This document shows positions 6,661-35,044 of a stretch of 64,000 nucleotides of DNA, piece after piece. This stretch comes from Planctomycetes bacterium syqfu (GTDB lineage Bacteria > Planctomycetota > Phycisphaerae > Phycisphaerales > Phycisphaeraceae), in assembly GCA_020974905.1 (NCBI GenBank), contig CP087563.1, positions 3,286,001 to 3,350,000 on the forward strand, read 5' to 3'. Both the position numbers and the translations under genes were made by a program. The stretch's first letter is position 1. Every line of letters starts with the position of its first letter. Under the pieces are notes generated by a model. It ran no database searches. It was not told the origin of the DNA and saw only the letters and a program-made list of their open reading frames with translations.

Positions 6661-6702
6661 TGGGTGACAATGAATCTGTACCGTTGATTAACCATCACGC
6701 AT

Positions 6703-6787
6703 CGTCATTCCCACGCAGGCCCGAATCCAGTGGCAAACAGTAGACGCTTGCAGATATCACTAGACTCCCGCCTGCGTAGGAGTGACG
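6703..6787. repeat. Family A hairpin repeat, copy 1
   Basis: About 85 bp with inverted ends of the type GTCATTCCCGCGCAGGCGGG...AATCCAGTGG and the reverse complement on the right. This copy is the most diverged of six in the window (see 7981, 9785, 13147, 14941, 20365). Together with a few unremarkable bases it fills the gap from 6661 to 6929. Confidence 0.75.
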
Positions 6788-6929
6788 GAAAAAAATTTGT
6801 GTTCAATGCACAAGGCTGGATGATTGATATCGATTCATTCCCAATCAACACAAAACGCCAGATGAGACGAAGTCGAATCTGACGGATCATCCACCTTGAC
6901 TTTCCCACCAATCCTGATTCAATGCACAT

Positions 6930-7881: not shown

Positions 7882-7980
7882 AAGTGATGTCAATTCAAAA
7901 CCTGCGCCGTATTGACATGCTGTACTCAATGAAGCCAGAGATAACAAGAGATTGATATTGCAGAAAAAGTGTGTTTCATC

Positions 7981-8063
7981 GTCACTCCCGCGCAGGCGGG
8001 AGTCCAGTGAGAACTGCAAGCGTCAACTGTATGCCACTGGATTCCCGCCTGCGCGGGAATGAT
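7981..8063. repeat. Family A hairpin repeat, copy 2
   Basis: Left arm GTCACTCCCGCGCAGGCGGG followed by AGTCCAGTG; right arm CCACTGGATTCCCGCCTGCG followed by CGGGAATGATG. The arms are nearly perfect inverted copies around a 25-30 base centre containing GCAAGCGTC. Confidence 0.85.
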
Positions 8064-9673: not shown

Positions 9674-9784
9674 TGGACAAACGATGAAAAAAAACGCGCC
9701 CATCAGGCGAGCCGCGTTGTGTCAACGCGGGATTGAGCGAAGCTCAAAATCTTAAAGCGTTGCAAACAATTAATCTCCCCCCTC

Positions 9785-9876
9785 CGTCACTCCCGCGCAG
9801 GCGGGAGTCCAGTGAGAACTGCAAGCGTCACCAGAATGCCACTGGATTCCCGCATTCCGGGGGCGCGGGAATGACG
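9785..9876. repeat. Family A hairpin repeat, copy 3
   Basis: Same arms as copy 2; the right arm contains an extra CATTCCGGGGG segment, making it slightly longer. It occupies the middle of the 9704-10011 gap. Confidence 0.85.
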
Positions 9877-9956
9877 AAATCAGAGACGCAATGGAGAATA
9901 ATGATTTGAACGGCTCTAGCTCGCCATTTCATCACACATCGCTGGAACCAAAAGAC

Positions 9957-13093: not shown

Positions 13094-13146
13094 GTGACAG
13101 ATTGTAGAGCAAAATGCGTCTGGATTCGCCGCGAGAAATGATGTTT

Positions 13147-13231
13147 CGTCATTCCCGCGCAGGCGGGAATCCAGTGGCATGCAGTCGACGCATGCAGGTA
13201 CCACCTGACTCCCGCCTGCGCGAAAGTGACA
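13147..13231. repeat. Family A hairpin repeat, copy 4
   Basis: Arms CGTCATTCCCGCGCAGGCGG...AATCCAGTGG and CTGACTCCCGCCTGCGCGAA...AGTGAC. It lies directly upstream of the glycosyltransferase and is open in its reading frame. Confidence 0.85.
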
Positions 13232-13314
13232 GAGAGAGTTGATGCAGACTACGCGACAGAATCAAACGATTGACTTGAATAAGTTTCATGCGACCCGTCA
13301 GATTCAACTTCGTC

Positions 13315-14098: not shown

Positions 14099-14911
14099 TT
14101 GGCACATATTCATCCCACCAGCATCGTCGACGAACAAGCCAAGTTGGCTCCAGACGTCGAAGTCGGCCCATTCTGCGTGATTCAGGGCAATGTTACCCTG
14201 GGCGCAGGTTGCCGGCTTGTCAGCCATGTTCATCTCAAAGGCCCCATGGTGGTCGGCGAGAACAATCTCTTCTACCCGCAGGTCTGCATGGGGTTTAGCC
14301 CCCAGTCCCGACGGGAAGATCCTGCATCGGTTAAAGCAGGTATCAAGATTGGCAACGACAATCTCTTCCGCGAAGGCGTGACCATTCACCGCGCCTCGGC
14401 AGAGATTCCCACCACTGTGGGTAACGATAACTACCTGATGGCATTTTCGCATCTGGGGCATGATGTGATTGTGGGTAATCAATGTACGATTGCCAACGCT
14501 GCCCTGATTGCCGGCCACGTCATCATTGACGACAAGGTCAACATCGGCGGGACCGGTGCGGTCCATCAGTTCTGTCGCGTCGGCCGCATGTCCATGATCT
14601 CAGGCACCATGGGCATCACCCGTGACCTGCCCCCGTTTATCATGGTCCACCAGCCCATCGGCCAGGTGTCGCTGAATCTCATCGGTCTGCGCCGTAATGG
14701 GTACAGCCAACACATCCATGCCATCAAACGTGCGTTCCGGATTCTCTTCCGCGAACGTCATACCAACCCCGTTGCTGTCAAGCTCATCCGCGAACAATGC
14801 GGTGATGATCCGCTGGCCATGGAAATGGCGGACTTCGTCGATCAATCCCAACGCGGCATCGTGCCCTCGGCATTGAAGCATGTGAAGTTTGAAGACAACG
14901 ATTCGGATTAG
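14099..14911 (+). CDS. lpxA: Acyl-ACP--UDP-N-acetylglucosamine O-acyltransferase LpxA
   Basis: First step of lipid A synthesis, cytosolic trimer. 270 residues, normal length. N-terminal left-handed beta-helix from hexapeptide repeats (HIHPTSIVDEQAKLAPDVEVGPFCVI...), catalytic His in AFSHLGHDVIVGN (about 124), and the helical C-terminal domain. The start is TTG at 14099 with GAGG nine bases upstream. Presence of lipid A synthesis agrees with a diderm envelope. Other lpx genes are not in the window. Confidence 0.93.
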   Translation: MAHIHPTSIVDEQAKLAPDVEVGPFCVIQGNVTLGAGCRLVSHVHLKGPMVVGENNLFYPQVCMGFSPQSRREDPASVKAGIKIGNDNLFREGVTIHRASAEIPTTVGNDNYLMAFSHLGHDVIVGNQCTIANAALIAGHVIIDDKVNIGGTGAVHQFCRVGRMSMISGTMGITRDLPPFIMVHQPIGQVSLNLIGLRRNGYSQHIHAIKRAFRILFRERHTNPVAVKLIREQCGDDPLAMEMADFVDQSQRGIVPSALKHVKFEDNDSD

Positions 14912-14940
14912 AGAAGTTCAAAGAATCAATCTGCACCTTC

Positions 14941-15031
14941 CGTCACTCCCGCGCAGGCGGGAGTCCAGTGGAACTTGCAAGCTTCAACAGAATGCCACTG
15001 GATTCACGACTTCCGGGGCGTGGGAATGACG
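14941..15031. repeat. Family A hairpin repeat, copy 5
   Basis: Left arm CGTCACTCCCGCGCAGGCGG; right arm altered to GATTCACGACTTCCGGGGCG before TGGGAATGACG, so this hairpin is imperfect. Confidence 0.8.
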
Positions 15032-15103
15032 AAAACGAGAGATCGCATGGCGATTGATTGTTTGACTGTCACGCCTGATTGATACCTTTACACAAATAAC
15101 AAA

Positions 15104-20364: not shown

Positions 20365-20449
20365 CGTCACTCCCGCGCAGGCGGGAGTCCAGTGGTATGT
20401 GCAAGCGTCTACAGAATGCCACTGGATTCCCGCCTGCGCGGGAATGACG
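20365..20449. repeat. Family A hairpin repeat, copy 6
   Basis: Best preserved copy: GTCACTCCCGCGCAGGCGGG...CCACTGGATTCCCGCCTGCG, arms nearly perfect. It lies in the 20315-20794 gap, which also holds an ATCTGTGT/TTCATCTGTGG tandem at about 20523-20550, a REP hairpin and the promoter region of the second sigma gene. Confidence 0.88.
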
Positions 20450-20595
20450 AAATGAAAAACGACCTGTCGATTCGTGTTTAAGCTGCCCTGAAGACTTTGA
20501 TCTGTTGTTACCTGTCTTGAACATCTGTGTGCATCTGTGTTCATCTGTGGTGAAAAATGTCTTGAGCGCGGGCGCGAACAACGGGAAGGCAAGGC

Positions 20596-20794: not shown

Positions 20795-21505
20795 ATGAGG
20801 ACGGATCAGTTGGACAGTCTGGGTGCTGGTGATCCAGACGACCCACAGGAGCAGTTGCTGGCAAAAGTCGCAGCAGGCAATGCTGTGGCGTTTGAGCAAC
20901 TGGTCCATCTTCATGCGGATCGACTCTACGCATTGGCTTACGTCATGCTCAAGAATCGGGCCGACGCTGAGGATGCGGTTCAGGAAACGTTCCTGGCTGT
21001 GTTTGAAAGTGCATCAAAGTTCCAAGGCAATGCAACGGTCAAGACATGGATCACACGCATACTCATCAAACGCATCGCCCGCATCCGGCGCAAGAACAAA
21101 TGGGGCAGGCTCCTGTTTGTCTCACGCCAGCCGGTGATGGATGCGATGCCTGCGAGCAATCGCACCGAGCATACCGAGATCCAGATCGACACCTTGCAGG
21201 CCATTGCCAAACTCCCGCCGGAGTTTGCCAGCGTGGTCATGCTGCGGGAGATTCAGGGCTTGAGCTATGCCCAGATTGCCGACGTCCTGGACCTGCCACG
21301 TGGCACGGTCGAGTCCCGGCTGCATCGCGGTAGAGCGTTACTCAAGGACACCTTGGCTGACTACTTCCCCCCCGGAAGTCACCCCCGGCCCCCGGAAGCA
21401 CCCCCACCGCGAAAAGTCGCCAGGCCGCCTGATGAAAGTGACAAGCCTGAACCTGCCTTGGACCACGAAACTGAAACAGACTCCGACAAAGGAGTGACTT
21501 CATGA
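20795..21505 (+). CDS. ECF RNA polymerase sigma factor (second)
   Basis: 236 residues. Region 2 about 35-100 (AFEQLVHLHADRLYALAYVMLKNRADAEDAVQETFLAVFESASKF) and region 4 about 130-185 (IAKLPPEFASVVMLREIQGLSYAQIADVLDLPRGTVESRLHRGRALLKD). A Pro-rich acidic tail of about 45 residues follows. The stop overlaps the next gene by four bases. It resembles the RpoE-like group; target genes probably include the linked periplasmic proteins. Confidence 0.92.
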   Translation: MRTDQLDSLGAGDPDDPQEQLLAKVAAGNAVAFEQLVHLHADRLYALAYVMLKNRADAEDAVQETFLAVFESASKFQGNATVKTWITRILIKRIARIRRKNKWGRLLFVSRQPVMDAMPASNRTEHTEIQIDTLQAIAKLPPEFASVVMLREIQGLSYAQIADVLDLPRGTVESRLHRGRALLKDTLADYFPPGSHPRPPEAPPPRKVARPPDESDKPEPALDHETETDSDKGVTS

Positions 21506-23364: not shown

Positions 23365-25098
23365 ATGCATCAGAAACTTCTCGAGCTGGTAAACCAGTGT
23401 CAACTGGATGAGTCCGCGGCCCGGCAGGTCAACGACCTGCTGGGCCAGGGGATTCCTTTGGACCGTGCCCTGCTCCAATCAGCGGTGCTCTCCGAATCCC
23501 AATGCGTTGAAAATTTCGGTGCATGGTTTGACCTGCCGACCACGGAACTGGCCAACTATCTCCCGGATAAACAACTGCTCAAAAAATGTCCGGCACGTGT
23601 CCTGCTGCAACACCAACTGCTACCCTTGGAAATTGTCAACGGCCAACTCCGCGTTGCCACCGCCTTCATCTCCAACCGGGCAGGCATGGACGAACTGCGT
23701 ATGGCAACGGGCATGACAGTCACCCCGGTCATCGCCCCACTCTCAGCCATCCAACGTTGTCTTAAAGCACACCTGGGGGTCGGTGCCGACACCGTCCAAT
23801 CATTGGTTGCTGACAAAGACGGTATTCAGGTCATTGACGATCAGGACAGCGATGATGATGTCGATCTGGCTGACGAAGCGGGCGACGCGTCGATTATCCG
23901 ACTGGTTAACCAACTGCTCTCCGAAGCCATCGAACGGCGTGCCACCGACGTACACATCGAACCCTTCGAAGAAGAACTCCGCGTGCGATACCGCATTGAC
24001 GGCGTGCTTCAGGAAGCCTCACTCCCCGCGGAAGTCAAACGCTTTCAGGCAGCGATCGTCTCACGACTCAAGATTCTCAGTCACATGGACATTGCTGAAA
24101 AGCGCGTGCCCCAGGACGGCCGTATCAAACTCAAAATCAATGAGCGCGAAATCGACGTGCGCGTGTCGGTGATCCCGATGCTCTATGGCGAAGCTGTCGT
24201 GCTGCGTTTACTTGACCGTTCATCCGCATTGCTGGGTCTGGAACAACTGGGGATTGCCCGAGACGATCAGGACAAACTCGACCGCATCCTTGCCCTGCCT
24301 CACGGTATTGTCCTCGTCACCGGCCCCACCGGTTCGGGGAAAACCACCACGCTTTATGCAGCACTGTCTCGGATCAACGATGTGGATCGCAAGATCATCA
24401 CCATCGAAGACCCCATCGAATACCAACTGCGTGGCATCAACCAGATTCAAGTCGCAACGCGTGCTGGACTCACCTTTGCCAAAGGTCTCCGCGCGATCCT
24501 GCGTCATGACCCTGACGTTGTTCTCATCGGCGAAATTCGTGACGGTGAAACCGCCCAGATTGCAGTCCAGGCCTCACTCACCGGCCACATGGTGTTCTCC
24601 ACATTGCACACCAATGACTCACCATCCGCCATCACGCGACTCATCGACATGGGTGTCGAACCTTATCTGGTCGCGTCATCCCTTGAAGCCGTCATGGCAC
24701 AGCGCCTGGTTCGCCGCATCTGTAAACACTGTAAAACGGCCTACGAACCCGACGATCGGCTAGCGATGGAGTTGGACCTGGGCATCAAGCTGCCCGAACA
24801 GCTTTACCGTGGCACGGGTTGCAGCCAATGTCAAAACACCGGCTACAGCGGTCGAACCGTCATCTGTGAAATGATGACCATCACCGGCAACATCCGCAGC
24901 CTGATTCTCGAACGCACCAGTGCTGACGTCATCCGACGCGAGACCACGCTGCAAGGCGCACGCAATCTCCGCGAAGATGGTTGGCGTCATGTCAACACCG
25001 GCACGACCACCATCGAGGAAGTGCTCCGCGTCACCAAAGATGAACGCAACGACTTTGCAAAAGCCCAAGTCCCCCCATCCAATCCTTCGGAGTCCTAA
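23365..25098 (+). CDS. gspE: Type II secretion ATPase GspE
   Basis: 577 residues. N-terminal MshEN-type domain (about 1-150), then the secretion ATPase core: Walker A GPTGSGKTT (about 320), Asp box around TIEDPIEYQLRG, Walker B LIGEIRDGETA, and a four-cysteine zinc site CKHC...CSQC near the C terminus. Drives pseudopilus assembly from the cytosolic face. First gene of an eleven-gene set, six bases ahead of gspF. A family B repeat adjoins its start. Confidence 0.95.
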   Translation: MHQKLLELVNQCQLDESAARQVNDLLGQGIPLDRALLQSAVLSESQCVENFGAWFDLPTTELANYLPDKQLLKKCPARVLLQHQLLPLEIVNGQLRVATAFISNRAGMDELRMATGMTVTPVIAPLSAIQRCLKAHLGVGADTVQSLVADKDGIQVIDDQDSDDDVDLADEAGDASIIRLVNQLLSEAIERRATDVHIEPFEEELRVRYRIDGVLQEASLPAEVKRFQAAIVSRLKILSHMDIAEKRVPQDGRIKLKINEREIDVRVSVIPMLYGEAVVLRLLDRSSALLGLEQLGIARDDQDKLDRILALPHGIVLVTGPTGSGKTTTLYAALSRINDVDRKIITIEDPIEYQLRGINQIQVATRAGLTFAKGLRAILRHDPDVVLIGEIRDGETAQIAVQASLTGHMVFSTLHTNDSPSAITRLIDMGVEPYLVASSLEAVMAQRLVRRICKHCKTAYEPDDRLAMELDLGIKLPEQLYRGTGCSQCQNTGYSGRTVICEMMTITGNIRSLILERTSADVIRRETTLQGARNLREDGWRHVNTGTTTIEEVLRVTKDERNDFAKAQVPPSNPSES

Positions 25099-25104
25099 GC
25101 CAAC

Positions 25105-26328
25105 ATGCAGACGTACGCATACAAAGCAACCGATGCCAAGGGCTCCATGACCGAAGGCTCGATTCAGGCAACCAACCGCAGTGCAGCGATGCAGCAACTC
25201 GGCGCATTGGGTTTAACCCCCATCGCGCTGGTTGATCCGTCGGACGTGCAAGGCAAAAAGGCTGCGGACTTCAAACCCAAAGCAGGCAGTCGCATCAGTA
25301 GCGCGGACCTCGAACGGTTCACGCGTGAGTTGGCCAACTTGCTCACCGCCGGTGTGCCGTTGAGTAAAGCTTTGCAGATCATCGTGCGTGAAAGTTCGCG
25401 CATGAACTCCAACCAACAGTTCCGCGCGATTCACGATGACGTGGTCGGCGGGATGTCGTTAGCTGATGCAATGGCACGTTGGCCGCGGTCATTTTCGGAT
25501 GTGTATGTTGCCATGGTGCATGCCGGTGAGACGGGTGGTTTTCTTGATGAAGTGCTCATCCAGATTGCAGAGTTGCGCAACCGCGAACAGGAACTTGTCG
25601 GACGCGTCAAAGGCGCACTGATTTACCCGGTGGTGCTTGCGACCGTTGCCAGTGGTGTGATGATTTTCCTGCTGACGTTTTTCATCCCGCGATTTACCAG
25701 CATTTTCGCGGACTTCGGCGGGCAACTGCCATGGCTGACGCGACAGATTGTGGCATTGAGTAACGGCTTACTCCAATACGGTTTGTTTTTACTCATCGGT
25801 ATCATGCTTGGGATCGTCGGTGTGCAACGTGCATGGAAAACAGACAGCGGTCGACGGATCATTGAAAACCTGATCCTCAAATTGCCCGGTGTCGGCAAGG
25901 TCATCGCTCAGCTTGCGATGGTGCGCTTCTGCCAAATGCTCGGGACGTTGCTTGGTGCCGGTGTGCCGTTGGTTAATTCGCTGAAGGTCGCCCGTAAAGC
26001 CATTGGCAATCAGACACTCTCCGATGCCGTGGACCAAAGCGTTGAACAGGTGCAGATGGGGACCGCTTTGGCGATGAGTTTAAAAACATGCCCGACCCTT
26101 TTCCCGCAATCGGTCATTGAAATGATCAGCGTGGCAGAGGAGTCCGGTCGCCTTGATAAAGAGTTGGTGCGTTTGTCCGAGACGTATCAGAAATTACTCG
26201 ACCGCTACCTGCGTATGCTCGTGTCCCTGATGGAGCCGTTAATGCTTCTGATCATGGGCGCGATCGTGGGCACCGTGGTCATCGGCATGCTCCTGCCGGT
26301 CTTCGAACTGCAGGACCTCGTTCAATAA
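25105..26328 (+). CDS. gspF: Type II secretion inner-membrane protein GspF
   Basis: 407 residues, two homologous GspF domains (about 70-195 and 275-395), each with FTRELANLLTAGVPLSKAL / RFCQMLGTLLGAGVPLVNSL, and three membrane helices (about 175, 225, 380). Platform protein of the secretion machine. Confidence 0.95.
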   Translation: MQTYAYKATDAKGSMTEGSIQATNRSAAMQQLGALGLTPIALVDPSDVQGKKAADFKPKAGSRISSADLERFTRELANLLTAGVPLSKALQIIVRESSRMNSNQQFRAIHDDVVGGMSLADAMARWPRSFSDVYVAMVHAGETGGFLDEVLIQIAELRNREQELVGRVKGALIYPVVLATVASGVMIFLLTFFIPRFTSIFADFGGQLPWLTRQIVALSNGLLQYGLFLLIGIMLGIVGVQRAWKTDSGRRIIENLILKLPGVGKVIAQLAMVRFCQMLGTLLGAGVPLVNSLKVARKAIGNQTLSDAVDQSVEQVQMGTALAMSLKTCPTLFPQSVIEMISVAEESGRLDKELVRLSETYQKLLDRYLRMLVSLMEPLMLLIMGAIVGTVVIGMLLPVFELQDLVQ

Positions 26329-26450: not shown

Positions 26451-26897
26451 ATGAACTCACGTACCAAACTTTACGCACGCAATGCACGACGCGGCTTTTC
26501 TCTCATTGAACTGCTGCTCGTGCTGGTGATTCTGGCGACACTCACTGCCATCATCGCCCCGCGTTTTACATCACGTTCCAAGCAGGCACGTGTCACCGCT
26601 GCCAAGACGGATATCTCGCGTCTTGAGTTACTGCTTGACTCGTTTGAAATCGACACCGGTCGCCTGCCAACTTCCGACGAAGGCCTGGATGCCCTGCTTG
26701 AAGAACCGAGCAACGTCACCAATTGGCAAGGCCCATATCTCAAGAAAAACGCACTGCCCAAGGACCCGTGGGGCAATGCGTACATCTACGAATATCCCGG
26801 CAAAAACAACACGTCCAGCTATGACCTGTCTTCCTATGGCCCCGATGGCAAGCAAGGCGGTGATGACGACGTGACCAACTGGACTGAAGACGAGTAA
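26451..26897 (+). CDS. gspG: Major pseudopilin GspG
   Basis: 148 residues. Prepilin cleavage site RRG/FSLIELLLVLVILATL with Glu at +5. The C-terminal part has the GspG hallmarks LPTSDEGLDALL, GPYLKK, LPKDPWGNAYIYEYPG and a calcium-site-like loop GPDGKQGGDDDV. Forms the shaft of the pseudopilus. Confidence 0.96.
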   Translation: MNSRTKLYARNARRGFSLIELLLVLVILATLTAIIAPRFTSRSKQARVTAAKTDISRLELLLDSFEIDTGRLPTSDEGLDALLEEPSNVTNWQGPYLKKNALPKDPWGNAYIYEYPGKNNTSSYDLSSYGPDGKQGGDDDVTNWTEDE

Positions 26898-26960
26898 CCC
26901 CCCCCGGAAGTTTCCCGAAAGTCCCCCGGAAGTCCCCCGGCATTTTCACAAGTCAGATCA

Positions 26961-27584
26961 GTGATGAACCAAAGAGTCACAAAGACACAGAGAAAGACAC
27001 CAAACACACATTCAAACCATGCGTGTGGGTTGATCTCCCATGCTCTGTTCTCTGTGCCTTTGTGTCTCTTTGGTTCAAAAAAACGATCGCAACGTGCGTT
27101 CACGTTTTTCGAGTTGCTGGTCGTGTTGGTGATTCTGTCAACGGCATTGGGCATGCTGGCACCAAACCTGCGCAGATTTTTCTTTGCTCACCAGACACAC
27201 GAAAAAGCCCTGCATCTATTGGCACTCATGCGCCACGCTCGCAGTCAGGCCGTCACGCAAGGCATCACGCATCGCCTGGTGATCAACATCGATGACCGTG
27301 AGTACCTGCTCGAACAACGTGTTGATGGCAAGTATGTCAAGCTGGACAACTCACTGGGACAGACCTTCGATTGGCCTCAGACCATGGAGCTGACCTTCGA
27401 AGCGGACACCGAGCAAAACAGCCCGATTTACCTGTATTTCAGGCCCCAAGGCACGGTCACGCCGGGCAAGATCACGATTCACGGAGATGACGACGAGAAA
27501 GGCTATGTCCTGCGATCACTGACAAGCAGCGAACCTTACACCCTGAGCACCATCAAAGAAGACGACGACAGGAACCTGGACTAA
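26961..27584 (+). CDS. gspH: Minor pseudopilin GspH-like
   Basis: Up to 207 residues. The pilin helix is RAFTFFELLVVLVILSTALGM with Glu at +5, but the residue before the cleavage point is Ala instead of the usual Gly. A periplasmic domain typical of GspH/FimT follows (ALHLLALMRHARSQAVTQG). The N-terminal 40 or so codons come from a family D inverted repeat (26966-27077), so the true start may be downstream (for example a TTG near 27057), which would also give a normal short leader. Two bases before gspI. Confidence 0.82.
   Translation: MMNQRVTKTQRKTPNTHSNHACGLISHALFSVPLCLFGSKKRSQRAFTFFELLVVLVILSTALGMLAPNLRRFFFAHQTHEKALHLLALMRHARSQAVTQGITHRLVINIDDREYLLEQRVDGKYVKLDNSLGQTFDWPQTMELTFEADTEQNSPIYLYFRPQGTVTPGKITIHGDDDEKGYVLRSLTSSEPYTLSTIKEDDDRNLD
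26966..27077. repeat. Family D inverted repeat inside the gspH 5' end
   Basis: AACCAAAGAGTCACAAAGAC...ACAGAG on the left and CTCTGTGCCTTTGTGTCTCT...TTGGTT on the right, about 55 bases apart. Confidence 0.75.
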
Positions 27585-27586
27585 CC

Positions 27587-27988
27587 ATGCAACACCGTGA
27601 TGCACATTGCAATCACCGACATGGCTTCACGCTCATTGAGCTGCTTGCCACGCTGGTGCTTTGCGCGGTGGTCTTGCCGGTGGCATTGCAGGCGATTAGC
27701 ACATCGGTTCAGCTTGGTAGTGTCACGCGCGACAAACTCGTTGCATCGGAACTGGCGCAAAACAAGATGCGCGAAATTCTGGCAACCGAGTCATGGGCAG
27801 ACGGTGATGAATCCGGCGAGTTTGAAGACCAGCCACGCTTCACATGGGAATCATGGACTGAAGATTGGCAAGGCAGTGTCGTCAAAATCCTGCACGTTCA
27901 GATCAAATGGGACTATCGTGGCGATGAACGCACCCTCCAATTAGACACCCTGGTCTACAGCCAGGATGACCAGGAGAGTGCATCATGA
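27587..27988 (+). CDS. gspI: Minor pseudopilin GspI-like
   Basis: 133 residues. Prepilin site [26 protein letters not shown]; the following sequence (SELAQNKMREILA) matches the GspI pattern of residues after the helix. Overlaps gspJ by four bases. Confidence 0.88.
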   Translation: MQHRDAHCNHRHGFTLIELLATLVLCAVVLPVALQAISTSVQLGSVTRDKLVASELAQNKMREILATESWADGDESGEFEDQPRFTWESWTEDWQGSVVKILHVQIKWDYRGDERTLQLDTLVYSQDDQESAS

Positions 27989-28224
27989 CCAAACGCATCA
28001 GACACTGTAAAAACAGTGGTTTTTCGCTACTGGAACTTATGCTTGCCTTGGCGTTGATGGGCGCTTTGATCGGTTCACTGACTGCATCATTGACCGTTGC
28101 CTACAAAGCCCGCGCCCGGGTGGATGATGCGCTGGGCAGTTTGGTCCAACTGCAGAACACGCTTGATGAGATTCAAATGGAACTCGAATCAGCGCTCCCC
28201 CCGGCGAAGTCTTTGCAGGTGTGA
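27985..28224 (+). CDS. gspJ: Minor pseudopilin GspJ, N-terminal part (frame broken)
   Basis: 79 residues with a normal prepilin site NSG/FSLLELMLALALMGALIGSL and pilin helix, then a premature stop at 28222-28224. A GspJ of normal size (about 240 residues) results if translation moves to the -1 frame at the run of six C (28197-28202). The zero frame there reads C CCC CCG, a textbook slippery heptamer; after a shift the sequence continues LPPGEVFAGVMICDTD into the next frame. Either a one-base deletion (sequencing or real) or genuine slippage would explain it. Confidence 0.85.
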   Translation: MTKRIRHCKNSGFSLLELMLALALMGALIGSLTASLTVAYKARARVDDALGSLVQLQNTLDEIQMELESALPPAKSLQV

Positions 28225-28706
28225 TGATCTGTGACACCGATGACGATGCGCCGGTGAGTAACACACCTTACCTGGAGTGGTACAGCAATCATCCAATCGA
28301 GTTGCCCGCAGACACCGTTGTCAAAGGCGATATCCGTAAAGTGGCGTTGGCATTGACCACACGTGACGGCTACAAGCATCCCGTACTGGTCAAACGCACG
28401 ACCACAAACCTGCTTGCCACACAGGTCGTCGAACCCACCGAGCAGGTTCTTTGTCGTGATGTCCAATCGCTGACGATGCAGTTTTACGATGGCAGTGACT
28501 GGTACGACACATGGGATGGTTCGACAGCAGAAGACCCCCTGCCACTGCTTATTGAGATCACCATCAAGTTGCAATCGGATCATCCGGATGATGACCAGGT
28601 CCAGGAGGACGCACCCAGGATGACGCGCCTGTATCGCATCATCTCCACCACCGCGCAATCCAACGGCAGAGGTCTTGGCAACACAGGATCAGGAGGTGGA
28701 CGTTGA
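28221..28706 (+). CDS. gspJ: GspJ, C-terminal part (frame broken)
   Basis: 161 residues of periplasmic GspJ domain, without prepilin signal. The GTG at 28221 has no good Shine-Dalgarno and independent translation would give a protein with no membrane anchor, so this is best read as the second half of GspJ. Ends TTGA-overlapping gspK. Confidence 0.82.
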   Translation: MMICDTDDDAPVSNTPYLEWYSNHPIELPADTVVKGDIRKVALALTTRDGYKHPVLVKRTTTNLLATQVVEPTEQVLCRDVQSLTMQFYDGSDWYDTWDGSTAEDPLPLLIEITIKLQSDHPDDDQVQEDAPRMTRLYRIISTTAQSNGRGLGNTGSGGGR

Positions 28707-30073
28707 AACCAACACACACATCCACCAACCATTGCATCCGCAGCCCCCGTAACCGGGGCACGATTCTCATTGTCACCATCTGGATCATCACCCTGCTGGC
28801 AGGCATGGCATTGGTGTTTGCACACACGATGCGCATCGAGGAAAGAGCCAACGGCAATCGCATCTATCAAACCCAATCTCGCGAGTTGGCAAACGGCGCC
28901 ATCGCCTATGCCCAGGCAGCTGCAACACAGGCCATCGACACCGAATTGGCCCAAGATCCACAGGCTGTCGGAGATGACTGGATCGTCCTCATCACACCCG
29001 ATGAAGAACAGGATGACCGGGCAAGCTATGGCATGATTGACGAAGCGGGCAAAGTCAACATCAATACCGCAACACAAGAGATGCTCGAAAAACTCCCGGG
29101 CATGACCGAAGAGTTGGCAGCAGCATTGATTGACTGGCGCGACGGTAACTCAGACGTCACCACCAATGGCGCTGAAGACGAATACTACCTGCTGCTTGAT
29201 GAACCTTATACCGCCAAGAATGGTGCCCTGGAGTCAATCGACGAACTGCAATTGGTCAAGGGTTTCACGCGACAGATCATTTACGGTGAAGACACCAATC
29301 GCAACGGCGTACTCGATGCCAACGAAAATGACGGTGATGAATCCGAACCGCCGGACAACGCAGACGGCACGCTTGATCCGGGCATCTTCCCATATGTCAC
29401 CGTCCATTCCATCCAGTCCAATCAGAATGACAACGGTCAGAACAAGCCCAACATCAACAACACCAATCTCAATGCCGTCTCCACGGTGTTGCAGGAAGAG
29501 CTTGATGCCGGCCGTCACGCCATTGTCATGAACAACATCCGAAACAACCGCCCGTTTACCAATCTCATCGACTTTTACTACAAATCGCAGATGACACTCG
29601 AAGAGTTCGACAAGGTGTCCGACAAACTCTCGCAATCCAACGGCGAAAACGTCAGAGGGAAAATCAATATCAACTCAGCATCCAAGAAAGTGCTCATGTG
29701 CTTACCACAACTTGAAGAAGCGGATGTCGATACGCTGATTAGTTACCGCAGTTCCAAGAGCCAGGAGGAACTGACATCCATCGGCTGGGTCACCGAAGCG
29801 TTCGGTGAAGACGGCCGGGAGAAAGCCATCGCCATCGGTGGCGTGATTACCACGCAATCCAATCAATATGCGTTTGACGCGCTGGTAATCCGTGCCAAGG
29901 GACGCAGCTACGCACGACGTTACATTGTCATCGACACCCGTGAAGGTGCCCTGGTTCGATCAAGCCAGGACATCACGCACTTGGGTTGGCCTTTGAATCA
30001 CAAGGTGTTGACGACGTTAAAGACCGAAGATGATGATCCGGAAGAAATACTCAGTGACGAAAGTCTCAAATAA
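28703..30073 (+). CDS. gspK: Minor pseudopilin GspK
   Basis: 456 residues. N-terminal NRGTILIVTIWIITLLAGMALVF lacks the +5 Glu, as in known GspK tip proteins. Helix-hairpin-helix-like motifs around VNINTATQEMLEKLPGM and INSASKKVLMCLPQL. A calcium EF-hand-like loop DTNRNGVLDANEND near residue 200. The TTG start follows a perfect AGGAGGTGG. Caps the pseudopilus with GspI and GspJ. Confidence 0.92.
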   Translation: MKPTHTSTNHCIRSPRNRGTILIVTIWIITLLAGMALVFAHTMRIEERANGNRIYQTQSRELANGAIAYAQAAATQAIDTELAQDPQAVGDDWIVLITPDEEQDDRASYGMIDEAGKVNINTATQEMLEKLPGMTEELAAALIDWRDGNSDVTTNGAEDEYYLLLDEPYTAKNGALESIDELQLVKGFTRQIIYGEDTNRNGVLDANENDGDESEPPDNADGTLDPGIFPYVTVHSIQSNQNDNGQNKPNINNTNLNAVSTVLQEELDAGRHAIVMNNIRNNRPFTNLIDFYYKSQMTLEEFDKVSDKLSQSNGENVRGKININSASKKVLMCLPQLEEADVDTLISYRSSKSQEELTSIGWVTEAFGEDGREKAIAIGGVITTQSNQYAFDALVIRAKGRSYARRYIVIDTREGALVRSSQDITHLGWPLNHKVLTTLKTEDDDPEEILSDESLK

Positions 30074-31536
30074 TGCAGCTTAAACGTACCAGTCGAATCG
30101 TCCTGAGCTTAACAGGACAAAGTATCCGCTATGCCAGGGTGCATCGTGCGGGTCAGAACGTACAGGTTTCCGACCAGAAGGTTCTGCCTTTTGACTTTGC
30201 TTCCTTCTGGTCAGCACCATTGACCGTGGACAATGCGTTATCGCAATTGCTCAAAGCCAATGGGATCACCAGGAACAAAGTCATCATCGGCGTGCCTGCC
30301 CAGTGGTGTCTGTTTGATGAATTGCGTTTACCCAAGCTTGATCAGGCGTCACTCAAAAGTGCTGTCGGACTTCAGGCAGAGCAGCGGTACAACCGATCGG
30401 ACCGCGCGTTTACCTGTGACTACATGCCCCCTGTTGCGGATGAAGACATGTGGTCGGTGACGTTGGGCGCGATGGCAGCGTCCCATGTCGCAGCACTGCA
30501 ATTCGCGTTGGAACAGGTGCATCTGAAAGTCCATGCCATCATCCCCACGTCGGTGTTACTGCATGATCTTTACCAGACCGATGCGTCCAAACGCTGGCAA
30601 TACACGGCATGGCTGCGAAACGACCAGGTGGAACTCTTCTGCTGGAACCAGAAAAAATTCGCTGGCATGAACCTGCTCTCCGTCAGTTCGGATCATCTCA
30701 ATGGTGATCTGCATCAGCATCTGTATGACACCGTGCGTCAGCAGATCATGCAGGACGAACTCATCCACGCAGTCGATGCACAAAACCAGAACGTCCAACT
30801 CTTCTGGGATCACGAACATGATTGTGATGCCCAGTGGTTTAGCAAACCCACCGACGCACGGCGTTGGCAGATTCATGACAAACCCAATGCAGGCCGCGGT
30901 GCAACGCGCGTGGGTAATGATCTGATTGCCCTTGGGCAGTTGGTTCTCAGCGAAGATACACCGACGCTCGACTTTGCAGACTCCCGCTTACATCAGAAGC
31001 AAACACAGACCACGCATCCATGGCGAAATCGATTGATCCTTATCGGCTCGTTAATCGTCGTGCTCGTGGGTCTGCTGGGCTATGACCTGTATTCCCTGAA
31101 TAAACAGGTCTCCGAACTCAACACGCAGATCAGTGAACTCGAAGACGGCACGGACCGTGCAGGCTCGATCATCAAGCTTGTGCAGCGTGCAGAGAATTGG
31201 TTCTCCACCGAACCGGTGTATCTGAACTGCCAGCGCAGCATCAGCCGTGCGTTTGGTTCAACCGAACACATCTGGGCATCGAACCTGTCATTAAGGCCGG
31301 ACATGATGGGTTTGATGAACGGCTATGCTCATTCCAAAGATCACATCGTCCAGTTGATTGATCGCATGAAAAACCAGCCGGACCTCTCGCAGATCAAACT
31401 GCTTTACATGCGTGATTCCAATGCCAGAAACGATACGGAAATCGCCTACGCCATCTCGTTTGTCTACGAGCCAGCCAAAGCAATGGCCACGCCCGGTGAG
31501 ACTCAGGCAACGGAGAATGCTGGAGGTGAACAATGA
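30073..31536 (+). CDS. gspL: GspL/PilM-PilN-like inner-membrane protein
   Basis: 487 residues. Actin-like PilM/GspL domain in about the first 200 residues (KLDQASLKSAVGLQAEQ), a membrane helix at about 318-340 (LILIGSLIVVLVGLLGYDLYSL), then a PilN-like coiled-coil and ferredoxin-like part. It combines what type IV pili split into PilM and PilN. Overlaps gspK and gspM. Confidence 0.85.
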   Translation: MQLKRTSRIVLSLTGQSIRYARVHRAGQNVQVSDQKVLPFDFASFWSAPLTVDNALSQLLKANGITRNKVIIGVPAQWCLFDELRLPKLDQASLKSAVGLQAEQRYNRSDRAFTCDYMPPVADEDMWSVTLGAMAASHVAALQFALEQVHLKVHAIIPTSVLLHDLYQTDASKRWQYTAWLRNDQVELFCWNQKKFAGMNLLSVSSDHLNGDLHQHLYDTVRQQIMQDELIHAVDAQNQNVQLFWDHEHDCDAQWFSKPTDARRWQIHDKPNAGRGATRVGNDLIALGQLVLSEDTPTLDFADSRLHQKQTQTTHPWRNRLILIGSLIVVLVGLLGYDLYSLNKQVSELNTQISELEDGTDRAGSIIKLVQRAENWFSTEPVYLNCQRSISRAFGSTEHIWASNLSLRPDMMGLMNGYAHSKDHIVQLIDRMKNQPDLSQIKLLYMRDSNARNDTEIAYAISFVYEPAKAMATPGETQATENAGGEQ

Positions 31537-32081
31537 ATCTCAACCCACGTGAAAAATGGATTCTCGTCACCACGTTAACCGTGCTGGGCATCTTCCTGCT
31601 CGACCGGTTGGTGATCTCGCGCGTGCTTGATTACCGCGACAGTCTGGTCAGTGATGTGCAGAGTCTTTCGGATGATCTATCGCGTGATATTCACCTGATC
31701 AAACAAGGCAAGCAGCAGCAAAAGCGTTGGAAGAACATGATGACCATCGGTCTTCCCAATAGCGCCTCCGAAGCCGAATCGCGCACGCTTGATGCGATCA
31801 ATCAATGGGCTTCGGATACGAAGGTGGACCTGCTGTCGGTCAAGCCGGAGTATCGCCGCAGCGATGAATTACTGGTGCCCGTGGTGTTTCGTGTCACCGC
31901 CAATGGTTCAATGAAAGCCATCGCCAAGTTCATCTGGAAAGTGGAGACCGCCGACATTCCCGTTTGCGTGGACACCTTGCAGATCAATGCCCGCGACAAG
32001 AAAAACAAGGATGAGCTTTCCATGCAGATGGGCGTCAGTGCCTTGTATCGCAAGTCCGACAGCAAGGAGGTGTCGCGATGA
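31533..32081 (+). CDS. gspM: GspM/PilO-like protein
   Basis: 182 residues: N-terminal membrane helix (about 8-28, WILVTTLTVLGIFLLDRLVIS), coiled-coil (about 30-65), and a ferredoxin-like C-terminal domain. Overlaps both neighbours by four bases. Confidence 0.8.
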   Translation: MNLNPREKWILVTTLTVLGIFLLDRLVISRVLDYRDSLVSDVQSLSDDLSRDIHLIKQGKQQQKRWKNMMTIGLPNSASEAESRTLDAINQWASDTKVDLLSVKPEYRRSDELLVPVVFRVTANGSMKAIAKFIWKVETADIPVCVDTLQINARDKKNKDELSMQMGVSALYRKSDSKEVSR

Positions 32082-32698
32082 AACAAGTCCTCACCGGATG
32101 CTTGATGTTTGTCATGCTGTTTAGCTCTACCAATGTCTTCGGGCAAACCAGTGACAACAAATCCAAAGACAAATCGACCAAGCCGTCATTCGCTGATTAC
32201 CAGGTTGTGGTGGACACCAACATTTTCATCCGTCGCAAACCGGTCCCTAAGCGTACAACGCAAAATGAAGCCCAGACACCCACGACAGCAGCGCCCCCGC
32301 CAGTTGCCCCCGTCAACAAGTATCTGCTCTGTGGCATCATCATTGAAAACGATGACCGTTTCACAGCCATGATCGAAGACGCCCTGACGCATACGCTTCA
32401 GAGTCTACATATCGGTGACAAGGTCAATGTCTTTGAGATCACCTCGATGACCATCTCCAGCGTGGTCCTGAGTCTGCCTGATGGGCGTAGCGCGGAACTG
32501 TTCATCGGCCAATCCATTGATGCCAACGGCAACCTGCTGCAGTCCGGCTGGATCCCCACCGCCAAGTCTGCTGCACCATCAACCGACTCAGGGCAATCGT
32601 CTGACTCTGAGAAAGACACGGCCCAACCCACCAACGAAAAAGAACTTTCCATCCTCGAAAAACTGCGTCGCCGACGCGAGAGTCAACTCAACAAGTAA
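32078..32698 (+). CDS. gspC: GspC/PilP-like periplasmic protein
   Basis: 206 residues. Signal peptide or anchor (about 1-23), Pro/Thr-rich linker (about 58-77), then a beta-rich homology-region domain (YLLCGIIIENDDRFTAMIEDALTHTLQSLHIGDKV), as in GspC HR and PilP, expected to touch the secretin. No PDZ domain. Directly upstream of gspD. Confidence 0.78.
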   Translation: MKQVLTGCLMFVMLFSSTNVFGQTSDNKSKDKSTKPSFADYQVVVDTNIFIRRKPVPKRTTQNEAQTPTTAAPPPVAPVNKYLLCGIIIENDDRFTAMIEDALTHTLQSLHIGDKVNVFEITSMTISSVVLSLPDGRSAELFIGQSIDANGNLLQSGWIPTAKSAAPSTDSGQSSDSEKDTAQPTNEKELSILEKLRRRRESQLNK

Positions 32699-32710: not shown

Positions 32711-35044
32711 ATGCACGGCAATTCCTCTTCAACACCATCTGTTTTCCGGCTCTTGTCGCGTTATGGTCTGCTTGCGCTTTGCTGCATGACGATGACCTTT
32801 ACGCCATCGCTCATCGCACAGGACATGCCCGACGACGCACCACCACCGCCAGAGGAAATGGCACCACCGCCGGATGATGGTCACGATGGCCAACCTGGCC
32901 AAGCACCAGTAAATGCTGAAGCAGCTTCCCAGCAACCTGCAACGCCGAGCAATCTCCCGCAGTCGACCATCAAGAAAGTCAAAACGCTGGATGTCCCCCA
33001 GACCATCAGCCCGACGACCAATGGCAACGGGATCACGCCTGAAAAAGTCGAATCCATCCGGATGAACTTTGAAAATGCGCCACTCAATGCCGTGCTCCAA
33101 CACCTCTCACGCACCGCCGGGTTTGTCGTCATCAAGGAAGTGGATGTCGAAGGCACCATCTCCGTCATTGCTCACCAACCCCTGACCGTCGACGAAGCGG
33201 TGATGCTACTCAACACCATGCTCAAGCAGCACGGTGTGACCGCGTTGCGTAACGAGCGTATTCTCACCATCGTCTCACTGACCGATGCCAAGAAGCGATA
33301 CATCCCCGTCAAAGCCGGCGCCAACCCGGACAACATCTCTAGAACCGATGAAGTGATCACGCAGGTGATTCCACTGCGATACACCGACGCAACCAAACTC
33401 AAGGATGACCTGACGCCACTGTTACCCGAGTATGCTGTGATGTCCGCCAATCAGGCAAGTAACTCACTGATCCTCACGGACACTTCGTCCAACGTCAAAC
33501 GTATCGTGCAGATCGTCAAGGAACTGGACCAATACGTCTCAGGTACGACCAGTGTCCGCGTCTTCCCATTGCAATATGCCGACGCCAGCAATGTCGCGCG
33601 CATCGTCAAGGAAGTCTTTGAAACTGACAGTTCAAGCAGCCGCAACAACCAGAACAACAACCGTTGGCAACGTTTCTTCCGCGGACCGCGTGGCGGGCAA
33701 CAACAGCAGCAAAACGAAGGTCAATCCAATATCACCACGACTGTGCGGGCATCAGCAGATACGGAAACCAACACCGTCGCTGTCAGCGGTCCGGCGGATA
33801 CGCTTGATGTGGTGGCCCAGGTGATCACGCAACTGGATTCCAACCCGACACAGCAACAGGAAGTCTTCATTTATCCCTTGAAAAACGGCACCGCCAACAC
33901 GTTGGCCACACGACTGACCAACCTCTTCAAGGACTCAACCACATCCAACAATCGGAACAACAATCGAAACAACCGTAACCAAGCCAACAGCCAAACCGAA
34001 TCCTCAGCCACAGACCTCAAGGGAGAAGTCACCGTCGTGGCGGATAATGACACCAATTCATTGATGGTCATGACCTCTGCGAAAAACTATGATCGCGTGA
34101 AAAAGATCATCGACGATCTGGATCGCCCGATCCCGCAAGTACTCATCAAAGTCCTTGTCGCTGAAGTCACACATGACGGCGAAGTCGATCTGGGTGTTGA
34201 GTTCTCAGGCCTGAATATTCGCGACAGTGGCAATGGTTTTGAGATCGGCACCGACTTTGGGGTGGCCTCAGCGACCGACGGCTTCAAGTTCTCGCTGATT
34301 GAAACCAATCTCAATGCTGCGATTCATGCTCTGGAAACCGTGGGTAAACTTGATGTCCTCTCGCGACCTTACATCCTGACATCGGACAATAAAAAAGCGA
34401 CCATCACCGTTGGTGAAGAAGTGCCTTTCATCCGCGACTCACGCACGACGGATCAGGGCAGCACGATCAACACCATCGAATACGAAGACATCGGCATCAT
34501 TCTCAACGTCACCCCGCACATCAATCCCGATGGCCTGGTGATCATGGATGTCGCGCCAGAGATTTCCACGCTGACAGGTAACACCGTACCGATCTCTGAA
34601 ACGGTGGACGCCCCGACGTTTGCCAAGCGTTCAGCTTCCAGCCGTGTTGCCATCCAGAACGGTCAGACCATCGTCATCGGTGGCCTGGTGCAGGACCGCA
34701 AAACCAGCACGGTCAACAAGGTTCCAATACTTGGCGATATCCCCCTGGTTGGCGAACTTTTCAAACGGACCCAGGACAGCAAGTCCAAAACCGAGTTGCT
34801 GATCTTCATCACCCCGCATGTGGCTGATCAACCGGGCCTTCTCCAGGCGATCTCCAAGTCCGAGGAAGCAAGCCAGGAAATCGTCAAGGAGGCCATGGAA
34901 GGCAAACTCTATCAACGCCATCTTGAACGCATGGGCACAGAAGGCAACACACAACCCAAGCCCGATTCAACCAACAGAACATTTGAAGTCGAAGTCGAAT
35001 CCAATTCGGATTCAAATGCGACACGCAGCAAACGCTTCCGTTAA
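32711..35044 (+). CDS. gspD: Type II secretion secretin GspD
   Basis: 777 residues. Signal peptide ending near LIAQ, Pro-rich N terminus, N0 domain (about 115-190), several N1-type domains (TQVIPLRYTDATKLKDDLTPLL; VRVFPLQYADASNVARIVKEVF; VFIYPLKNGTANTLATRLTNLF) with Asn/Gln-rich inserts, then the secretin pore (VLIKVLVAEVTHD ... GQTIVIGGLVQDRKTSTVNKVPILGDIPLVGELFK ... ELLIFITPHV). Last gene of the operon, followed by a terminator. Confidence 0.96.
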   Translation: MHGNSSSTPSVFRLLSRYGLLALCCMTMTFTPSLIAQDMPDDAPPPPEEMAPPPDDGHDGQPGQAPVNAEAASQQPATPSNLPQSTIKKVKTLDVPQTISPTTNGNGITPEKVESIRMNFENAPLNAVLQHLSRTAGFVVIKEVDVEGTISVIAHQPLTVDEAVMLLNTMLKQHGVTALRNERILTIVSLTDAKKRYIPVKAGANPDNISRTDEVITQVIPLRYTDATKLKDDLTPLLPEYAVMSANQASNSLILTDTSSNVKRIVQIVKELDQYVSGTTSVRVFPLQYADASNVARIVKEVFETDSSSSRNNQNNNRWQRFFRGPRGGQQQQQNEGQSNITTTVRASADTETNTVAVSGPADTLDVVAQVITQLDSNPTQQQEVFIYPLKNGTANTLATRLTNLFKDSTTSNNRNNNRNNRNQANSQTESSATDLKGEVTVVADNDTNSLMVMTSAKNYDRVKKIIDDLDRPIPQVLIKVLVAEVTHDGEVDLGVEFSGLNIRDSGNGFEIGTDFGVASATDGFKFSLIETNLNAAIHALETVGKLDVLSRPYILTSDNKKATITVGEEVPFIRDSRTTDQGSTINTIEYEDIGIILNVTPHINPDGLVIMDVAPEISTLTGNTVPISETVDAPTFAKRSASSRVAIQNGQTIVIGGLVQDRKTSTVNKVPILGDIPLVGELFKRTQDSKSKTELLIFITPHVADQPGLLQAISKSEEASQEIVKEAMEGKLYQRHLERMGTEGNTQPKPDSTNRTFEVEVESNSDSNATRSKRFR

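Follow-up and report, generated by a model that had tools for sequence, protein, structure and literature searches.

The gspJ gene of a type II secretion operon is split in the stretch of DNA analysed here (the window, 64,000 nucleotides at 3,286,001-3,350,000 in a single contig of 7,376,598 bases, in a genome designated G000), and it is very probably the recent loss of one C, in the cell or in the assembly, and not an evolved slippage switch, that splits it. The split is a singleton frameshift in a homopolymer, an ordinary event.

In the window's gspJ, the prepilin leader with its N-methylation motif and the body of GspJ lie in different frames. The upstream part (27985..28224, forward strand) is an ORF of 79 amino acids that contains the prepilin leader, the N-methylation motif (PF07963, 28.1 bits against a cut-off of 21.2) and the start of the body, and that ends at a premature TGA at 28222-28224. 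The downstream part (28204..28706, forward strand) is in the -1 frame and carries the T2SSJ domain (PF11612, 35.7 bits against a cut-off of 28); this frame is open through the slippery site up to 28706, with no extra stop before the normal one at 28704-28706. The NCBIfam model TIGR01711 scores 17.3 bits on gspJ, under its cut-off of 64.85, and the intact protein of the closest relative, at 20.9 bits, is likewise under it. At the junction lies a run of six C (28197..28202, forward strand), with a T before it at 28196 and a G after it at 28203, and in the zero frame the run and the G read C CCC CCG (28197..28203, forward strand), a formal -1 slippery site ahead of a zero-frame stop with the -1 frame open. 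A preliminary description of this DNA had claimed a gspJ split at a -1 slippery site with the -1 frame continuing as GspJ, and this is confirmed by the ORFs and by the PF07963 and PF11612 matches to left and right. The heptamer had also been placed in the correct frame, but its quoted start at 28196 is one base off, and the stop said to follow it does so at a distance of 18 bases rather than 20. At this stop, the sequence TGATG (28222..28226, forward strand) overlaps the zero-frame TGA with a Met codon of the -1 frame. A search for a second gspJ copy in the window's genome returned one DNA match and one PF11612 match only.

Three genomes of the same genus were available (G001, G002 and G003), and gspJ was found in G001 and G003. 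In the closest relative, G001 (88.8% DNA identity over 9,494 columns), the equivalent place holds seven C and gspJ is one open frame of 261 codons from stop to stop, in which the Met codon of TGATG is an internal residue (GVMICD). In the case of G003, SALPPGEVFAG is encoded via TTG CCG CCT GGC, without a C run, in one frame of 240 codons, and for G002, which is 78% complete, the PF11612 profile search gave no gspJ match. As a refutation, the preliminary description had named seven C in the reads, or close relatives free of any slippery heptamer, and this applies in part; seven C are present in G001, where the in-frame run is itself a C_CCC_CCC heptamer, and a site without any slippery heptamer is found in G003 but not in G001. 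Among named genome records, genes closely related to the right half of gspJ are found in the MAGs PAIY01 (Phycisphaeraceae bacterium NAT22) and DLCK01 (Phycisphaerales bacterium UBA7800).

On a broader scale, PF11612 matches occur in 32 of 61 genomes (G000 counted), with 24 genomes over the curated cut-off at 25 places. The frame was read at one place per genome in these 24, the second place of G044 being left out, and 23 of them have an N-methylation-like motif upstream of the GspJ domain and in one open frame with it (22 by pattern, G022 by eye). The lone exception is G000, whose open frame with PF11612, at 178 amino acids, is shorter than that of any other of the 25 places over the cut-off, where the next shortest has 229. 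None of the other 23 genomes that pass the PF11612 cut-off, each read at one place, shows a frame break at the same site. By parsimony, an in-frame gspJ is ancestral, and the break is private to the G000 assembly among the genomes read.

The genes around gspJ run in the order gspE, F, G, H, I, J, K, L, M, a gene in the C position, and D, and only gspJ is not open. On the forward strand these are gspE, the secretion ATPase (23365..25098; PF00437), gspF (25105..26328; PF00482), gspG, the major pseudopilin (26451..26897; PF08334), gspH (26961..27584, start codon uncertain; PF12019 and PF07963 over the cut-off), gspI (27587..27988; PF07963 over the cut-off, PF02501 and TIGR01707 below it), gspK (28703..30073; PF21687 and PF03934 over the cut-off), a gspL-like gene (30073..31536; PF12693 and TIGR01709 matches, both below the cut-off), gspM (31533..32081; PF10741 over the cut-off) and gspD, the secretin (32711..35044; PF00263). 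No Pfam family matches the gene in the gspC position (32078-32698) at the thresholds applied. The start of gspH (26961-27086) lies inside an inverted repeat, with AACCAAAGAGTCACAAAGACACAGAG at 26967 and its near-complement at 27050; this sequence has 16 matches with at most 5 mismatches in 2.064 Mb, both gspH copies counted. Because the residues preceding the gspH prepilin motif are read from the inverted repeat in both G000 and G001, the gspH start may derive from an inserted element, or may be misplaced; the leader of G003 is partly similar.

Selection was measured on either side of the break. Against G001, dN/dS is 0.050 to the left of the site (71 codons) and 0.107 to the right (167 codons), and ten other operon genes range from 0.018 (gspF) to 0.171 (the gene in the C position), with gspK compared over just 378 codons. 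The same comparison with G003 gives 0.065 (60 codons) and 0.070 (159 codons); with dS near 2, close to saturation, these figures are a rough guide only. The gene in the gspC position has the highest dN/dS among the operon genes compared, with 0.191 against G003. Signs of an old pseudogene, namely relaxed selection and more stops past the break, were sought in gspJ and are absent, the right part giving the 0.107 noted above. These comparisons indicate that the right part of gspJ has been kept under purifying selection through nearly all of the divergence. Since purifying selection is still visible past the break, the base loss would be very recent, or absent from the cell, or else the GspJ protein may still be made. 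The earlier argument that an intact operon speaks against decay agrees with the selection seen on both halves of gspJ; this points to a break that is recent or only apparent, and not to one in use.

As for where the base is missing, a real, recent deletion of one C has close to an even chance of being correct, a homopolymer error of the assembly comes only slightly lower, and the two are about equally likely. Nothing observed speaks against the shortening of the run as such. The alignment of G000 with G001 spans 122,327 bases, which come from 750,657 bases of G001 and are not a random sample, many contigs having been chosen for matching the window and some only via dispersed repeats. A further 800,000 bases of G000 yielded no extra aligned DNA, so that the frameshift rate is still based on these 122,327 bases. 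Examination of 214 gaps with a length not divisible by three left a single isolated frameshift with coding-like DNA (codon-like substitution) on both sides, which is that of gspJ; where a second such gap lay within 60 columns, the gap was taken as compensated or non-coding and not counted, part of these being looked over without resolving them one by one. A looser threshold added one weak case outside the window, in which G001 lacks a base next to an A6 run and one side shows only 3 mismatches.

The lengths of homopolymers in the two genomes were also compared. Aligned A/T runs agree in 50 of 56 cases, and the changes from G001 to G000 go both ways (six to seven twice, seven to six twice, nine to eight once, and seven to four once). 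Five aligned G/C runs are seven bases long in G001, and in G000 two of these are shorter, two equal and one longer; C runs of up to ten are present in the G000 assembly. In intergenic DNA, G/C runs of at least seven number 18 against 48 of length six in G000, and 13 against 30 in G001 (p 0.83), counts that speak against general shortening by the assembler. The longer runs are rarer in G000 inside ORFs (26 vs 204, and 26 vs 85 in G001; p 0.006) and in all DNA of a first 1.264 Mb (26 vs 148, and 39 vs 115 in G001; p 0.026), which would fit shortening or simply different genes, the G/C-run samples of the two genomes not being the same genes. Many broken genes in G000 were sought through ORFs of at least 60 amino acids, which are alike in length in the two genomes (mean 336 amino acids in G000 and 332 in G001); by this measure, and with one clear isolated coding frameshift in the aligned bases, an assembly rich in homopolymer errors is not seen. 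C-rich intergenic stretches at 21370-21410 and 26895-26945 are built from CCCCCGGAAGT-like units, and their run lengths differ between G000 and G001.

The window also contains a dispersed palindromic repeat of the GTCATTCCCGCGCAGGCGGGAATCCA type with a core of about 85 bases, in six copies (6702-6790, 7979-8062, 9752-9918, 13144-13233, 14908-15065 and 20365-20454). Folded as DNA, the copy at 7979 is far better than its shuffles (z -8.31). In a BLAST search of 2.064 Mb, the six window copies matched 53 bins, each of 150 bases, and copies are present in many contigs of G001 and G003.

The preliminary description had offered three options for the split, of which assembly error and a real one-base loss fit the evidence and programmed slippage does not. 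Under the last of these, the level of full-length GspJ would be set by programmed -1 frameshifting at the C CCC CCG site, and the layout of the site would fit such a mechanism: the frame of the heptamer is correct, a zero-frame stop follows closely, and the -1 product would keep the LPPG of the relatives. In addition, one paper (PMC4066793) places C_CC.C_CC.G among 18 motifs with more than 0.10% frameshifting in E. coli without a stimulator, although the same paper gives CCN second codons as weaker shifters on average than AAN and UUN. Background frameshifting in its constructs is about 0.04-0.11%. A hairpin at 28213-28234, about ten bases downstream of the heptamer, appears in one minimum-energy fold, but is missing from the centroid of that fold and from the 80-base fold, and RNA folding downstream is no better than that of shuffles, with z values, from folds without pseudoknots, of -0.60 (80 bases downstream), -0.53 (with flanks) and -0.09 (from the fourth base past the heptamer). 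By eye, the one upstream candidate for a Shine-Dalgarno-like stimulator is a weak GGAA at 28179-28182. The split is also absent in relatives, motif and body lying in one frame in 23 of 23 other genomes, and because it is chiefly this missing conservation that counts, programmed slippage is given a very slight probability, which the hairpin and the GGAA leave unchanged. The heptamer, moreover, arises automatically once one C is lost: as a matter of arithmetic, CTC CCC CCC GGC minus one C gives the zero-frame C CCC CCG, and a -1 shift then restores the ancestral residues. Thus the 'perfect' slippery site is not independent evidence. Heptamers of the form X_XXY_YYZ are common, occurring in frame 45 times in 49 non-overlapping window ORFs of at least 150 amino acids, two of them C_CCC_CCG, where the ORFs are mechanical ones and not verified genes, and the gspJ site is excluded, its ORF being too short. 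In 2.064 Mb, 1,355 ORFs hold 1,607 such heptamers, of which 12 are C_CCC_CCG. One tRNA-Pro gene, with anticodon GGG, was found in the same 2.064 Mb, which are part of the genome. C_CCC_CCC is one of the heptamers named as efficient in E. coli (PMC4066793), and the intact gspJ of G001 thus carries a better heptamer than the six-C gene.

The six-C allele might be fixed in the species, with the cell living on trace full-length GspJ from unstimulated -1 slippage on C CCC CCG; such trace production from a six-C gene is plausible, yet the reading as a whole is very unlikely. If true, a newborn slippage site would tune a low-copy pseudopilin, and one mutation would turn an ordinary gene into a recoded one, starting from an in-frame C_CCC_CCC as in G001. 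There is likewise only a very small chance that the C tract is phase-variable, the population toggling gspJ on and off by gain or loss of C. Homopolymers are mutable, and the same place has seven C in G001 and six in G000, but a contingency tract of six or seven C would be a short one, G003 is without the tract, and G/C runs of at least six anywhere in the frame are found in only six of the 24 frames read (those of G000, G001, G009, G020, G022 and G026), with one assembly of the species to compare. Finally, the overlap of stop and ATG at 28222-28226 would permit a restart, such that two proteins are made from overlapping genes and the halves work separately. The Met codon of this overlap is internal in the intact G001 gene, however, the right half alone lacks a match to the prepilin N-methylation motif and should therefore not be handled as a pseudopilin, and the split occurs in 0 of the 23 other genomes read, leaving this reading with an almost negligible probability.

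The preferred reading, recent loss of one C, would account for the split as follows. An ancestral gspJ would have encoded an in-frame Leu-Pro-Pro-Gly stretch, with seven C in the closest relative, that now reads six C in G000, and the missing base would lead translation into a short out-of-frame tail ending at the TGA at 28222. The gene would have been intact and under selection until very recently, and its loss of a base would represent either slipped-strand deletion in a mutable homopolymer or an assembly homopolymer error, with the slippery heptamer as a by-product of the C loss rather than a signal shaped by evolution. Should the loss be real, the main product would be a 79-residue GspJ stub, perhaps with a trace of full-length GspJ through unstimulated slippage, and the type II secretion system of the strain is probably impaired, as the genome is without a second PF11612 match. 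What the sequences show directly is the six C of G000, the seven C or missing run of the intact relatives, selection on both halves, and a genome with no other PF11612 match, whereas the time and place of the base loss and a low level of slippage are inferred. The case also carries a caution, namely that when an in-frame homopolymer of seven loses one base, a formally perfect -1 heptamer results that restores the ancestral protein. Because such a loss creates a slippery site by itself, the site is not evidence of programming unless it is shared by relatives.

Of the systems known to resemble this one, programmed -1 frameshifting of the IS3-family type at X_XXY_YYZ (PMC4066793) shares with gspJ the heptamer form and the frame relation; gspJ differs in having no split in relatives, no convincing stimulator and a weaker heptamer class. 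Intrinsic frameshift suppression in E. coli rpoB (PMC7022156) is similar in that a one-base indel may be overcome by slippage on proline CCC. For rpoB, DNA and cDNA both prove a one-base insertion, +1 slippage at CCC-AGG suppresses it, and peptides demonstrate the product, whereas gspJ would need a -1 shift and its full-length product is hypothetical; rpoB is a precedent for a frameshifted gene that works via CCC slippage, in the +1 direction. Also alike are the singleton frameshifted bacterial genes of the GeneTack survey (PMC3711429), which occur like gspJ in one genome only, have a frame change confirmed by intact homologues, and show no conserved site. Nothing of substance sets gspJ apart from them. 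The expectation stated in the survey is that singletons validated by homologues are sequencing errors and not genuine indels, and in the case of gspJ the fact that the base is missing from a C run raises the prior for mutation and for error.
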